Of a stretch of DNA of 64,000 nt, positions 4,122 through 32,311 are shown one piece after another. How positions within the stretch are numbered: the first letter of the stretch is position 1; each line of letters begins with the position of its first letter. This DNA comes from Pseudoalteromonas espejiana DSM 9414 (GTDB taxonomy: Bacteria > Pseudomonadota > Gammaproteobacteria > Enterobacterales > Alteromonadaceae). The stretch lies in contig NZ_CP011028.1 in the NCBI RefSeq assembly GCF_002221525.1, positions 2,305,001 to 2,369,000 of the forward strand, given 5' to 3'. Position numbers and translations under genes: made by a program. Below the pieces are notes generated by a model. The model saw only the letters and a program-made list of their open reading frames with translations. It was not told the origin of the DNA and did not search any database.

Positions 4122-5375
4122 ATGATTAAAGATACTAGCGCACAAGACGTACAGGTAAAATCGCCTGTAAATTATTTTAAACACGCCTTAGTAGCTGCAA
4201 TTGTTTTAATTATAACCTCTATAACCGCTTATATTTTTTTAACAAGCCATAGCGCAAAAAGCTCTATTAGTCGCTCAAAAGTACAAATTGCTAAGGTACA
4301 TATTAAAACACTTATTCGAGATATTGCCGCCAGTGGTAAAATTGTTGCTGCAAATGCCCCTCAAGTGTATAGCCCAGAGCGTGGATATATAGATTTAAAA
4401 GTAAAAGCCGGCGATACCGTAAAACAAGGCGATATACTTGCTCTATTGCAAAGCCCCGAGTTAACAAACGAATTAAAACAGCAAGAGTCTGTACTTGAAA
4501 GACTCAAAGGCGAGCAGCAAAGAAAACATTTGCAAGCAAGGCGCCAAACGCTCACCTTAAATAAAACACTTGATATAGCGAACGTTGAACTAAATGCCGC
4601 TGAACGCGAAAACCGCCGCGCCCAACTATCAATACAAAAACACTTGATTAGCCAAATTGACCTTGAAAAAGCCGTTGATGATTTATCTCGAGCAAAACTG
4701 ACTTATAAACACGCGCAACAAGAAGTGCACCTTGCTAAAGATACGCTCGCCTTTGAACTAAAAGCAGCTAAAAGTGATGTGACCCGCCAACAACTTATTG
4801 TTAATGATTTAATCAGAAAAGTAAGCAACCTATCTATTAAGGCTTCCGTTACAGGGATCGTGGGTAACCTATTAGTGCAACAAAAAGCCGCAGTCACGCA
4901 AAGCCAACCTCTTATGACACTCGTTGACTTAAGTAATTTCGAAGCCGAACTTCAAGTACCTGAAAGTTACGCGAACGAATTAGGGCTCGGTATGAAAGTA
5001 GAGCTTAAGTTGGGCAGTGAAATAGTAATGGGAAATTTGTCCGCCATATCACCAGAAGTTAATAATCGAGAAGTAACAGCACGCGTTCGATTTAAAGGGG
5101 GTACTAACAACATTCGTCAGAACCAACGCTTAACTGCACGCATTTTACTCGACAACCGAGAAGATGTATTGCAGATAAAACGCGGCGCATTCATGCAGCA
5201 AGGCGGAATTGTTGCCTATAAGGTCGATGGCAATATCGCAAAGCGCATACCTATTACAATAGGTGCCACCAGCATTAATGCCGTTGAGCTTTTGAGCGGG
5301 CTAAAAGAAAAGGATGAAATTATTATTTCAAGCTACAGCGACTTTAAACAAGCCGACACGATTTTATTAAATTAA
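4122..5375 (+). CDS. Periplasmic adaptor (membrane fusion protein) of an ABC exporter
   Basis: A 417-residue HlyD/MacA-like adaptor that would link an inner-membrane exporter to an outer-membrane channel. One membrane helix (about residues 20-42) follows a short cytoplasmic tail. Then come a lipoyl-like half (residues 75-105, ERGYIDLKVKAGDTVKQGD), a long coiled-coil hairpin (about 110-240, rich in Lys/Glu/Gln), the second lipoyl half (VTGIVGNLLVQQ) and a beta-barrel/proximal domain. Strong Shine-Dalgarno AGGAG. It is first of four co-directional exporter genes, so it most likely works with the MacB-like ATPase and permeases downstream. No outer-membrane TolC partner is in the window. The substrate cannot be told from sequence. 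Confidence 0.85.
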   Translation: MIKDTSAQDVQVKSPVNYFKHALVAAIVLIITSITAYIFLTSHSAKSSISRSKVQIAKVHIKTLIRDIAASGKIVAANAPQVYSPERGYIDLKVKAGDTVKQGDILALLQSPELTNELKQQESVLERLKGEQQRKHLQARRQTLTLNKTLDIANVELNAAERENRRAQLSIQKHLISQIDLEKAVDDLSRAKLTYKHAQQEVHLAKDTLAFELKAAKSDVTRQQLIVNDLIRKVSNLSIKASVTGIVGNLLVQQKAAVTQSQPLMTLVDLSNFEAELQVPESYANELGLGMKVELKLGSEIVMGNLSAISPEVNNREVTARVRFKGGTNNIRQNQRLTARILLDNREDVLQIKRGAFMQQGGIVAYKVDGNIAKRIPITIGATSINAVELLSGLKEKDEIIISSYSDFKQADTILLN

Positions 5376-5417
5376 ACAGACGTTCTCAGCCAACGCTAAA
5401 AATAATTAGGAACAACC

Positions 5418-6128
5418 ATGTTACAAATGAACAATGTAAGTAAAGTATACCAAACAGAAATGGTGCAAACCCATGCGCTTCGAGATTTCAATTTGCAAGT
5501 AAACGAAGGCGAATTTATTGCTGTTACCGGTCCTAGTGGCTCAGGCAAAACAACCTTTTTAAATATTGCAGGTATGCTCGAGCCTTTTAACGATGGTCAA
5601 TATCTGTTAGATGGCGTTAATGTTGGCAGCCTAAACGACAACCAACGTGCTGATTTGCGTAATCAAAAAATTGGTTTTATATTCCAAGGCTTTAATTTAA
5701 TTCCCGATTTGAACTTGTATGAAAACATAGAAGTTCCTCTTCGTTACCGAGGGGTTAAAGCAAATGAGCGAAAACGTCGAATTGAGCAATGCCTTGAGCA
5801 AGTTGGCTTAGTATCTCGCGCTAAACATTTACCTCAACAACTCTCCGGTGGCCAGCAACAACGTGTAGCAATTGCCCGTGCGCTTGCCGGAGAACCTCGT
5901 TTTTTACTTGCTGATGAGCCAACTGGTAACCTTGACAGCTTAATGGCACGCCAAGTAATGGAGTTACTTGAGCAAATAAATCGCGACGGTGCCACTATTA
6001 TCATGGTGACGCATGATAGCGAATTAGCCCGCCGTGCTCCGCGCAATATTCAAGTAGTTGATGGGCAACTTGCCGACTTTACGCTTTACCAAGGTGCGCA
6101 AAACATTAAAACAGCATCGGGGGTTTAA
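5418..6128 (+). CDS. ABC exporter ATPase, MacB/LolD type
   Basis: A 236-residue stand-alone nucleotide-binding subunit. Walker A GPSGSGKTT begins at residue 38, the Q-loop sits in FIFQGFNLI, the ABC signature LSGGQQQR begins at 142 and Walker B LLADEPTGNLD at about 163, with the H-loop in VTHD. EPTGNLD and the overall length are typical of the MacB/LolD/FtsE branch, which energises mechanotransmission rather than transport through a classical channel. The next gene starts 3 nt after the stop, so ATPase and permease are tightly coupled. In MacB proper, ATPase and permease are fused; here they are separate. Confidence 0.92.
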   Translation: MLQMNNVSKVYQTEMVQTHALRDFNLQVNEGEFIAVTGPSGSGKTTFLNIAGMLEPFNDGQYLLDGVNVGSLNDNQRADLRNQKIGFIFQGFNLIPDLNLYENIEVPLRYRGVKANERKRRIEQCLEQVGLVSRAKHLPQQLSGGQQQRVAIARALAGEPRFLLADEPTGNLDSLMARQVMELLEQINRDGATIIMVTHDSELARRAPRNIQVVDGQLADFTLYQGAQNIKTASGV

Positions 6129-29790: not shown

Positions 29791-29913
29791 TTACGTTAGG
29801 CTTGTGATCCAGCCTAAAATCGCATTTAAACAACCAATACCTGCAAACACGGCTAAAAAAGCAATGAAGTAAGTGGCGTTAAACGGATCTTTAAAGTCTT
29901 TATCATCTGACAT
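29791..29913 (-). CDS. Small single-helix membrane protein (40 residues)
   Basis: MSDDKDFKDPFNATYFIAFL begins a 40-residue protein with an acidic N-terminal tail of about 12 residues. A hydrophobic helix (about 14-38, AVFAGIGCLNAILGW) and a short polar end follow. An AAGG site lies 8 bases before the ATG, and a hairpin follows the stop; both support a real gene. It lies 72 nt after the hvfC-type gene on the same strand, so it could belong to that unit or be independent. I do not recognise a family. Confidence 0.6.
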   Translation of the reverse strand: MSDDKDFKDPFNATYFIAFLAVFAGIGCLNAILGWITSLT

Positions 29914-29985: not shown

Positions 29986-30738
29986 TTAATGTTGATTTTT
30001 TGTCACTATAACACCGCGTTCTGCCATTGCATTTAAGGTAGTTAATGCACCTTGGGCAATTTGTTCTTTGCTAAATTGAGGCGCATGCGATACCACTTGC
30101 TCACAGATACTCTCAAAATTAATACCATCGCTTGTTTCAATAATAGTAAGTAGTAACGCCGTCATGGCATTAGTGGCTAAAAACTGCACGTCATCATCGC
30201 TATCTCTGTACACTACAAAGTAATTGGGCTGCTCTGAGGGCTTTGTAGGCAAAAACTGCGTACTTATATTTTGAACAGCAAATTGATAACTCAAATTTCG
30301 CGCTACGCTAGATAAATAAAGAAGCGAGCTGGTTAATTCTGTACTTTTTAAAGGTTGTTCATCAGGGCTTTCATTCGCCACAGATACATCAAGCTCTACC
30401 CACTCATAATGAGCAAGCTCTAGCATAAAAACAGGATCGCTTTGTTTCATTTTATAACTACTCGATAAGTAGCTGATAAATTCCCCTGCTATATCTAAAA
30501 AATAGGGGGATTGGCAGTCATGCTCACTAAAGAACGCTCTTACAAGTGTTTTCCACTGTTGCTCGGTATAGAGTGTTTTAAGCACCGGAAAACCAGAGGA
30601 TATAAACCCTTCAATATTATTAAAAAATAAATCACGGTAGATTGCCATGCGTCTATCTTCAATATCGATAGGTTTTTTTTGCGTATTTGGCTCTCGTATA
30701 TGGGCCATAAATTCGTTTTGCGTATCAATAAAGCTCAT
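29986..30738 (-). CDS. hvfC: HvfC-like partner protein (DUF2063)
   Basis: 250 residues. The N-terminal half (about 5-100: FIDTQNEFMAHIRE, ...GFISSGFPVLKTLYTEQQW) is the DUF2063 'putative DNA-binding' domain, now understood as the partner that helps present precursor peptides to MNIO enzymes. The C-terminal half resembles the second domain of HvfC/BufC proteins. It starts 13 nt after the DUF692 gene with a strong AAGGAAGG site. With the DUF692 enzyme it should form the modification complex for the EGKCG peptide. The DNA-binding annotation is probably historical. Confidence 0.8.
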   Translation of the reverse strand: MSFIDTQNEFMAHIREPNTQKKPIDIEDRRMAIYRDLFFNNIEGFISSGFPVLKTLYTEQQWKTLVRAFFSEHDCQSPYFLDIAGEFISYLSSSYKMKQSDPVFMLELAHYEWVELDVSVANESPDEQPLKSTELTSSLLYLSSVARNLSYQFAVQNISTQFLPTKPSEQPNYFVVYRDSDDDVQFLATNAMTALLLTIIETSDGINFESICEQVVSHAPQFSKEQIAQGALTTLNAMAERGVIVTKNQH

Positions 30739-30751
30739 TTACCTTCCTTAT

Positions 30752-31609
30752 TTACGCTGTTTGCTGAGTAAGTGCTGCACTTGCATTTTTGCTTTGTAAA
30801 TTGTGAATAATATCTAGCTCTTTAGTTAGCACATTGATACTAGGAATATTAAAGTCACGCTCTAACAATGTAGGAAATACCCCATGGAGTTGATACGCTT
30901 TATCGAGCAATTGCCAAACAGGGTCAATTACATCGGCGCCATGTGTATCTACAATTAAATCGTCTGCTTCATTGTAGTGCCCTGCTACATGGCCATAAGC
31001 AATACGCTTTGAGGGTAACCCACAAAGAAATTCTTCAGCGTTATAACCATGATTCACTGAGTTTACATATATATTATTTACATCTAATAATAACTTACAG
31101 TCAGCTTGCTCTAAAATTGCATTAGTAAACTCAAGCTCTGACAACTGTTGACCTGGCGCACCATAATAAGACACATTTTCAATTACTAATTGGCGCTCTA
31201 AAATATCTTGCACTTGTTTAATACGTGCTACTACATGCGCAACAGCATCATCTGTAAAAGGGATTGGCATCAGATCATACATATGGCCCGTACCCGAACA
31301 ATAGCTTAAATGCTCGCTGTATAGCTTAATATTATGCTCGTCAAAAAATGATTTTAGCGATTTAACAAACGCAATATCAAGAGGCTCAGGCGATCCTATT
31401 GAAAGTGACAAACCATGACACACAAAATTATTAGCATCGGTTAGGGTTTTAAATTGCTTTTTAAAGCGTCCCCCCAACTTAAGCCAGTTTTCTGGTGCTA
31501 CTTCCATAAAATCGACTTGTTGAGGAACGTGTTCAAGTAGCTCATCGAGCATTTCGCGCCGAAGGCCTAATCCGACCATGCCAAGCTCTGAATTTTTTGT
31601 TGGTATCAT
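30752..31609 (-). CDS. hvfB: MNIO-family (DUF692) peptide-modifying oxidase, HvfB-like
   Basis: 285 residues with a TIM-barrel metal-ligand pattern: His65 (VCHGLS), Glu99-His100 (YSEHLSY), Glu144 (VIENVS), Asp176 (LDVNN), His207/His211 (GHVAGH), Asp221/His223 (VDTHG) and Glu250 (LLERD). MNIO enzymes use two or three irons to oxidise Cys in RiPP precursors. Adjacent HvfA- and HvfC-type genes point to the EGKCG-type chemistry (oxazolone plus thioamide, copper binding in the Haemophilus case). The ATG at 31609 is chosen because AAGGAG lies 5 bases upstream; a TTG at 31627 falls in the preceding hairpin region and lacks a site. Confidence 0.88.
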   Translation of the reverse strand: MIPTKNSELGMVGLGLRREMLDELLEHVPQQVDFMEVAPENWLKLGGRFKKQFKTLTDANNFVCHGLSLSIGSPEPLDIAFVKSLKSFFDEHNIKLYSEHLSYCSGTGHMYDLMPIPFTDDAVAHVVARIKQVQDILERQLVIENVSYYGAPGQQLSELEFTNAILEQADCKLLLDVNNIYVNSVNHGYNAEEFLCGLPSKRIAYGHVAGHYNEADDLIVDTHGADVIDPVWQLLDKAYQLHGVFPTLLERDFNIPSINVLTKELDIIHNLQSKNASAALTQQTA

Positions 31610-31626
31610 TATTGTCTCCTTAAACA

Positions 31627-31648
31627 AAAAGGGCCTTTTGGCCCTTTT
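31627..31648 (-). terminator. Hairpin (attenuator) between precursor and enzyme genes
   Basis: AAAAGGGCC-TTTT-GGCCCTTTT, a 9-bp stem followed on the minus strand by TTTTTGTTT and then directly by the AAGGAG site of the DUF692 gene. It looks like an intrinsic terminator that would let most transcripts end after the precursor gene, with readthrough supplying enzymes. Confidence 0.75.
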
Positions 31649-31692
31649 AGCATAACGTATATCTGAGTGACTCAGGTATTTAAATCAGCGTA

Positions 31693-32127
31693 TTATTGGC
31701 CACCACATTTGCCTTCGCCGCATTTACCTTCTTTTTTACCTTTTGCTTCGCCGCCGCATTTGCCTTCGCCGCACTTACCTTCTTTTTTACCTTTTGCGTC
31801 GCCGCCACATTTGCCTTCGCCGCACTTACCTTCTTTTTTACCTTTTGCGTCGCCGCCACATTTGCCTTCTCCGCACTTACCTTCTTTTTTTCCTTTGGCA
31901 TCGCCGCCACATTTGCCTTCGCCGCATTTTCCTTCTTTTTCGCCTTTAGCATCGCCACCACATTTACCTTCGCCGCACTTACCTTCAGCAGCATCTAACT
32001 GGTAACCTGTCACTAATTGCTGAAACTCAAAAGGGTTTGCTTGAACGTCTGCAGACACAAAACTTGCAGAGCCAACAACTACTGCACCAAGGGTTAACGC
32101 GATTGAATTTTTCTTTACTGTATTCAT
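31693..32127 (-). CDS. hvfA: Secreted EGKCG-repeat RiPP precursor, HvfA-like
   Basis: 144 residues. Signal peptide 1-30 (MNTVKKNSIALTLGAVVVGS, cleavage after VQA), a 17-residue spacer (NPFEFQQLVTGYQLDAA), then five 17-residue units of the form EGKCGEGKCGGDAKGKK plus a last partial unit ending CGGQ. Together these hold twelve EGKCG motifs and twelve cysteines, with no other Cys. EGKCG is the motif modified in Haemophilus HvfA. The adjacent DUF692 and DUF2063 genes fit. Expected product: an exported copper-binding peptide. Site AAGAGAG precedes the ATG. The array is nearly identical at the DNA level, so copy number may vary between strains. Confidence 0.88.
   Translation of the reverse strand: MNTVKKNSIALTLGAVVVGSASFVSADVQANPFEFQQLVTGYQLDAAEGKCGEGKCGGDAKGEKEGKCGEGKCGGDAKGKKEGKCGEGKCGGDAKGKKEGKCGEGKCGGDAKGKKEGKCGEGKCGGEAKGKKEGKCGEGKCGGQ
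31696..31986 (-). repeat. 51-bp tandem repeat inside the EGKCG precursor
   Basis: Five complete 51-bp units and a 36-bp partial unit, in frame, with only a few substitutions between units. Each unit encodes two EGKCG motifs plus a Gly/Asp/Ala/Lys linker. The homogeneity suggests recent expansion or gene conversion. Not a CRISPR: no spacers. Confidence 0.92.
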
Positions 32128-32311
32128 TGTATGACTCTCTTATTCAAGGTTTGTATTAAGGTAACGTTTAAACGATTATTTTCATTTATGCGTTGTTTGT
32201 ATAGTTAAGTAGACCTGTATTGAAATAAAAACTTTCATTTATTTTCATTTTTTTTACTTTTTAAATTTATCTAAACAAATATGGACAGTAAATTGAGATT
32301 TATCAAACCTA

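Follow-up and report, generated by a model that had tools for sequence, protein, structure and literature searches.

The question raised by this locus is what a cluster for a cysteine-rich, ribosomally synthesized and post-translationally modified peptide (RiPP) does for its host, and with which other genes it is expressed. The cluster lies on the minus strand of a 64,000-nucleotide (nt) stretch of Pseudoalteromonas espejiana DSM 9414 (NZ_CP011028.1, positions 2,305,001 to 2,369,000), referred to here as the window, and consists of hvfA (32127-31693), hvfB (31609-30752) and hvfC (30738-29986), in that order. The trio is of a known kind, so the value of the locus lies in its setting rather than in the trio itself: what appears to be new is a promoter element, the genes that share it, a sigma factor paired with a DUF3379 protein, and a hairpin between the first two genes. 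Taken as a whole, the locus is probably a captophorin-class metallophore cluster that is driven by an extracytoplasmic function (ECF) sigma factor together with periplasmic repair genes.

The first gene, hvfA (31693..32127), encodes an exported EGKCG-repeat precursor of 144 amino acids, identified by NF050137 and its leader pattern; its signal peptide, like the others mentioned below, was assigned by eye and is presumed. The MNIO (DUF692) enzyme HvfB (30752..31609) matched PF05114 with 348.6 bits and the HvfB model NF003818 with 440.4 bits, against a cut-off of 360. It has 285 amino acids when read from the ATG at 31609; the start given in the open reading frame list, a TTG at 31627, touches the hairpin, and the ATG, 18 nt downstream, has an AAGGAG and is the better fit. 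The 250-residue HvfC (29986..30738) is a DUF2063/PME1 partner with an NGO1945_C domain that matched PF09836, PF22106 and, with 305.7 bits against a cut-off of 142, the HvfC model NF050145.

The metal ligands of HvfB, as mapped from MbnB, are His65, His100, Glu144, Asp176, Asn179, His207, Asp221, His223 and Glu250. Seven of the nine were transferred by hand from the alignment with 7DZ9 and the two N-terminal histidines were placed by the motif alone; the residue list is that given for MbnB in the published passages. All nine were identical in the 105 aligned genus sequences, the window's own counted. The nearest solved chain was 3BWW (E 8e-74), which is compared with HvfB itself in the part of the HvfB preprint that was available. 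Against NF050167, the bufferin model, HvfB reached 264.6 bits with a cut-off of 310, and the precursor had no Pfam match at E 0.001, DUF2282 included. The methanobactin model TIGR04159 gave 36.7 bits against a cut-off of 325, and the partner here is a DUF2063 protein rather than MbnC.

These results confirmed, at the level of sequence, the first-pass annotation of the locus as a HvfA/B/C-type cluster, with a precursor carrying twelve EGKCG motifs, both partner models over their cut-offs and the expected MNIO ligands in place; it is an ordinary, well-conserved example of a published kind. The cluster is not a chance find, because an orthologous hvfB was present in 107 of the 108 Pseudoalteromonas genomes, as 105 loci at 60% identity or more and two others. 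The best identity to named Pseudoalteromonas loci was 87%, in HvfB, in line with the marine host that had been proposed. The oxazolone/thioamide product that had been named has to be replaced, as that chemistry has since been reassigned to a 5-thiooxazole by two groups, its original authors among them, and homologous enzymes are described in the passages available as producing copper-binding 5-thiooxazoles. No second MNIO gene was found in the window's genome, and a near-match search gave no plasmid copy of the cluster.

The twelve EGKCG motifs of the precursor are arranged as six EGKCGEGKCG pairs, encoded by a tandem array (minus strand, 31699..31986) of 5.6 copies of a 51-nt unit with 91% matches, each unit specifying 17 amino acids with two EGKCG. 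This paired layout fits the preference of FonBC for a double repeat that is reported in PMC13097082. The precursor scored 78.2 bits on NF050137 (KCGExKCG_twice; cut-off 19.5) and 70.7 bits on the stricter equivalog model NF050188, below its cut-off of 95, and it was therefore classed in the HvfA family and not as HvfA itself. The leader that follows the Sec-type signal peptide reads ANPF-x7-GYQ, and the pattern ANPF-x7-GY[QM] recurred in all 93 full genus precursors; it is likely to be the element that HvfC recognizes.

In the same 93 precursors the number of EGKCG motifs ranged from 4 to 58 with a median of 14 and was even in 77. The remaining loci of the 105 were left out of the count: nine precursors were cut by a contig end, G083 had no precursor before its contig end, G010 was partial and G074 contained a run of N. 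The first-pass annotation had seen in twelve sites a high-capacity copper buffer; the count itself held, and exactly 12 occur in 21 of the 93 precursors and more than 12 in 56, so that twelve sites are ruled out as a distinguishing feature. The exact product had been put forward as not described, but its kind is known: Pseudoalteromonas EGKCG members with up to 58 cysteines are already reported in PMC12452194, and the maximum of 58 EGKCG found here, in G044, is of the same kind as that reported there from P. piscicida. Draft contigs ended at or near the hvfA array in ten genomes (G008, G041, G042, G046, G052, G053, G062, G063, G081 and G083), and because draft assemblies break at the array, short-read data may underestimate repeat numbers. 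The case for strong concerted evolution of the array was weak, the identity of 30-nt units being 0.904 within an array and 0.878 between genomes (91 genomes).

The regions upstream of hvfA, when aligned, share TGAAAG and GGTCTA separated by 16-17 nt. In the window, the element is TGAAAG-N16-GGTCTA (minus strand, 32210..32237), recognized by conservation of the pattern and located 82 nt upstream of the hvfA start. The strict form TGAAA[GT]-N16/17-GGTCT[AT] preceded hvfA in 80 of 93 genus loci, and 12 of the 13 negative loci had a near variant. By comparison, the reversed pattern and the opposite strand each gave 0/93, the region upstream of apt 0/98, and shuffling predicted 0.02. The element was also present in 31 of 51 loci from Shewanella, Rheinheimera, Alteromonas and other genera, a count that leaves out four loci of Pseudoalteromonas itself, of which three were positive, and seven more had GGTCT[GC]. 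The end of the -10 box lay 34-157 nt, with a median of 38, from the start codon. We take this architecture, by eye, to be that of an ECF promoter, and the element would then be a new ECF-type promoter for this family. The Neisseria SigE promoter is described in the passages available as GTMAGBWTT, 12-13 nt, CGTCTAAH; the spacing and the -10 box here resemble it, CGTCTA being the same as GGTCTA save for the first base, whereas the -35 box differs.

The genes that share the element indicate the company that the cluster keeps. The pattern had 16 sites in the window's genome, compared with 5 for the reversed control, and sites were located approximately 30-50 nt upstream of an MsrAB fusion and an MsrA, both exported (the start of the latter taken as the ATG at the signal peptide), of DoxX and of a divergent TonB receptor/DoxX-like pair. 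In that pair (L312:2049-5139) the TonB-dependent receptor and the DoxX-like gene each have their own copy of the element, a hint of metal uptake. The element also precedes genes of this genome that we presume, by eye, to be cutA and dsbD, as it does in G051 and G029. Across the genus, with the window's own loci included and the 30 best matches taken for each gene, it was found at MsrAB in 23 of 30 loci and at DoxX in 22 of 30. Five further genomes, picked because they carry the TGAAAT-N17 form at hvfA, were scanned with that stricter pattern and had 26 sites against 12 in the control; hvfA lay behind a site in all five, as expected from the selection, and a sigma gene did so in two. DoxX and DsbD followed sites in Arsukibacterium, and a molybdopterin oxidoreductase, presumed to be MsrP-like, together with a DUF417 protein in Shewanella. 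Several of the remaining sites look like chance matches. The distribution suggests that hvfABC shares an apparently new regulon with exported MsrAB, MsrA, DoxX and cutA-dsbD.

The window's genome has 15 matches to sigma-70 region 2, and a first motif scan around these genes gave nothing convincing. Ten ECF factors were compared with the loci of relatives, and among these the L287 type was the only one with relatives close to hvf. The two loci concerned are from Arsukibacterium and were selected for the presence of the sigma. The gene order in A. tuosuense is hvfA, hvfB, hvfC, the element, DoxX, the sigma and DUF3379, with the element upstream of hvfA as well. In A. perlucidum a thioredoxin and a DsbD-like gene lie behind another copy of the element, and a TGTCTT variant lies upstream of DoxX-sigma-DUF3379. 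The L287-type sigma (NF009170/PRK12517 type) was present in 107 of 107 genomes searched and is unlinked to hvf in the window's genome. The element occurred at the sigma's own start in 8 of 20 loci selected from other clades (6 strict and 2 with GGTCTC), and two more were found by pattern. In ten loci (L424, L440, L450, L452, L455-L457 and L459-L461) there are 6-7 nt between the end of the sigma gene's -10 box and the ATG, so the sigma message would have almost no leader, or none at all. SigZ (L291) and the L288 sigma were rejected as the cognate factor, no relative of either being near hvf in the loci compared. The most likely cognate sigma is thus of the L287 type, with DUF3379 as its putative anti-sigma.

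This pair does not appear to be of the RpoE2/SigE type (ECF group 13), the proposed partners being NF009170 and DUF3379. Because the anti-sigma has a single cysteine, it lacks the C-x2-C of the zinc-binding anti-sigma (ZAS) motif; its invariant residues are a His, a Cys and a His, and it has what we take, by eye, to be a membrane helix. No paper in the open-access literature searched named DUF3379. We consider it possible, with less than even confidence, that DUF3379 unites an anti-sigma domain with an RseB-like sensor that reads copper or thiol oxidation through His, Cys and His, that the sigma pair is so far undescribed, and that in Alteromonadales and neighbours the EGKCG metallophore serves a dedicated regulon for periplasmic oxidation repair (TGAAAT-N17-GGTCTW) as its metal arm.

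In the mechanism that we propose, HvfB, a di-iron MNIO, and HvfC would convert the cysteine of every EGKCG in HvfA to a 5-thiooxazole in a four-electron oxidation, and the peptide, exported by Sec, would sequester Cu(I) in the periplasm. Transcription would start from the ECF promoter TGAAAG-N16-GGTCTA. The L287 sigma would be held by DUF3379 as a membrane anti-sigma until envelope stress, in the form of oxidized thiols or methionines, or of copper, was sensed by its putative periplasmic RseB-like domain, and the released sigma would switch on hvfABC, the exported MsrAB and MsrA, DoxX and cutA-dsbD. The HvfA peptide would then serve as the metal arm of a regulon for the repair of periplasmic oxidation.

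The hairpin between hvfA and hvfB would skew the message toward the precursor. It is formed by AAAAGGGCC-AAAA-GGCCCTTTT followed by TGTTT (minus strand, 31627..31648; z -3.7). Of the 88 hvfA/hvfB gaps of at least 40 nt, 69 contained a stem of 6 bp or longer in which 4 or more pairs were G-C, where shuffles predicted 3.8; the other 16 of the 104 gaps were shorter than 40 nt and were left out of this count. The arms vary between genomes (GGGCC, GAGCAAC, GGCCAGC, CAAGCCGC and others). The hairpin is not needed everywhere, because 19 long gaps lacked a stem of that strength and none of the 16 short gaps had a terminator-like hairpin. A local scan for sigma-70 promoters and terminators returned 11 promoter-like sites, compared with 7.9 in shuffles, and did not list the hairpin. 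It is probably a partial terminator or a stabilizer of the mRNA that leaves more precursor than enzyme message.

Several published systems bear on this mechanism. The HvfABC/oxazolin system of nontypeable Haemophilus influenzae likewise has EGKCG pairs behind a signal peptide, an HvfB-type MNIO and a DUF2063 partner. It has 6 modified cysteines and a DoxX (HvfX) in the operon, whereas here there are 12 sites, DoxX is unlinked and no DoxX was found among the tested genes adjoining the cluster; its sigma is RpoE2 with a small ZAS anti-sigma, whereas a different ECF factor with DUF3379 is proposed here. We take the COG3767, COG3220, DUF2063 and DoxX genes of H. influenzae to be hvf genes. These are, in the passages available, controlled along with msrAB by the ECF factor RpoE2, which answers hypochlorous acid (HOCl). 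Neisseria SigE/MseR and Caulobacter SigF/NrsF are small ECF regulons that, in the same body of work, join MNIO clusters, DoxX and periplasmic methionine-sulfoxide repair or a YedY-type enzyme; they differ in having other anti-sigma factors (ZAS type and NrsF) and most of their genes linked. The Buf_EGKCG/oxazolin precursors of PMC12452194 have 17-residue repeats and include Pseudoalteromonas, and thus share the genus and the unit with two EGKCG and differ in repeat number; DoxX is described there as common in EGKCG operons, not universal, and "in various combinations", and the passages of that paper mention no sigma control of the group. Fontiphorin/captophorin (PMC13097082) also has an EGKCG substrate, on which FonBC acts when the repeat is double and not single and installs the 5-thiooxazole, with seven sites and another host; the seven-site fontiphorin is reported to have bound as many as four Cu. 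The bulbicupramide (mmr) cluster of Microbulbifer (PMC12538549) keeps the MNIO, DUF2063 and EGKCG precursor through a marine genus and has five to eight cysteines; the passages of PMC12538549 give no promoter or regulon for mmr. The comparisons also draw on parts of PMC13419390, PMC8888699, PMC7907618, PMC3240639, PMC2893595 and PMC3511200.

A role in periplasmic oxidation and metal stress is preferred to a stand-alone copper buffer because the content of the proposed regulon resembles the RpoE2, SigE and SigF sets. The regulon would point no less strongly to oxidation damage in the periplasm than to copper; a role in copper handling is plausible. If the peptide were a plain buffer against excess copper, under a copper regulator, the element would be the site of a non-ECF protein. 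Copper binding by homologous products and the frequency of excess copper as an inducer (PMC13097082) speak for such a buffer. Yet the boxes, 16 or 17 nt apart and near the start, look like those of an ECF promoter, with a -10 near the CGTCTA of Neisseria SigE, and the tested partner genes are methionine-sulfoxide and thiol repair genes and DoxX rather than copper pumps, which makes this account improbable. Scavenging of oxidants or of other soft metals (HOCl, Au, Cd, Hg), with copper incidental, would suit the induction of the H. influenzae family genes by HOCl through RpoE2 and the reported response of Caulobacter SigF to chromate and cadmium; it is unlikely rather than improbable, given that several EGKCG products are reported to bind copper. 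Another role, that of a chalkophore that leaves the cell, fetches scarce copper and returns through a TonB-dependent receptor, agrees with the element at the receptor beside the DoxX-like gene, seen in a single genome, and with the term chalkophore-like that the Microbulbifer authors use for their product (PMC12538549). However, no receptor or exporter is among the genus-conserved neighbours, the other partners belong to oxidation repair, and homologous pathways are reported to be induced by excess metal, gold and oxidants, unlike methanobactin (PMC13097082); we regard it as quite improbable, the least favoured of the alternatives.

The regulator itself might be different: the element could be real and read by another ECF factor of the genome. 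That 10 of the 15 sigma-70 region-2 matches were compared, and that the window's genome has no element at L287, leaves room for this alternative. Among those compared, however, the L287 type is the one linked to hvf in relatives, and in other clades the element is found at the start of its own gene, so that another factor is a little less probable than the scavenger. Several observations weigh against the preferred mechanism, an ECF-driven oxidation-repair regulon under the L287 sigma. None of the 30 closest loci, the window's genome included, had the element at the sigma start; the Caulobacter mutants are reported to have no chromate or cadmium phenotype; and the cutA-dsbD site in G051 and G029, which may also count, falls inside an opposite-strand open frame. 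The wider reading, with DUF3379 as a sensor in a dedicated regulon, is weakened by the fact that 1VR8 scores like MucB and by the two variants among the 8 sigma-start sites. A PDB sequence search with the DUF3379 profile gave no match better than E 0.059.

The neighbourhood of the cluster is stable. The genes conserved around it in the genus are dusC, apt and dnaX, and 87 of the 105 genus loci had dusC, hvfC and apt around hvfB, 11 ended at a contig edge before dusC and 7 lacked apt within the sequence fetched. Of the 55 loci from outside Pseudoalteromonas (L080-L140), all 55 had hvfC, 52 had apt and 31 a divergent dusC. The sole genome without the cluster, G006, has a deletion scar (L244, around 5257-5819) in which dusC and apt are kept, hvfA and hvfB are gone and a 55-residue remnant of hvfC is left. 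Its DoxX gene is a fragment only, and it retains MsrAB with the promoter element (L355) and the sigma.

Between hvfC and apt (minus strand, 29791-29913) the window has an unannotated 40-residue membrane microprotein of one helix, with no Pfam or NCBIfam match. A similar open reading frame was present in 98 of 98 genus hvfC-apt gaps, tblastn matched it in 44 of the 55 other loci, and it has 80% identity in G006. It is unlikely to be a fourth member of the operon, being kept in G006, which lacks hvfABC, and without a match in L103 and L130, in which hvf has another location. A second MNIO cluster (L436, L439, L027, L024 and relatives) occurs in many genomes of the genus and not in that of the window; its precursor in L436 and L439 has 12 cysteines and one more in a lipobox-like N-terminus, and the element was found in 7 of 25 of its loci. 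The 64-kb window contained no tRNA, and none of its matches to Rfam families reached the gathering score.

The role of the EGKCG peptides may lie in protection from copper, in its acquisition or in defence against oxidants, and physiological studies are called for in the captophorin paper (PMC13097082). An element common to the cluster and to methionine-sulfoxide and thiol repair genes offers a direct test of that role and names a candidate regulator. In Haemophilus, Neisseria and Caulobacter, regulons of similar content are run by different sigma factors, which suggests that the link between these peptides and periplasmic repair either arose repeatedly or is of great age.
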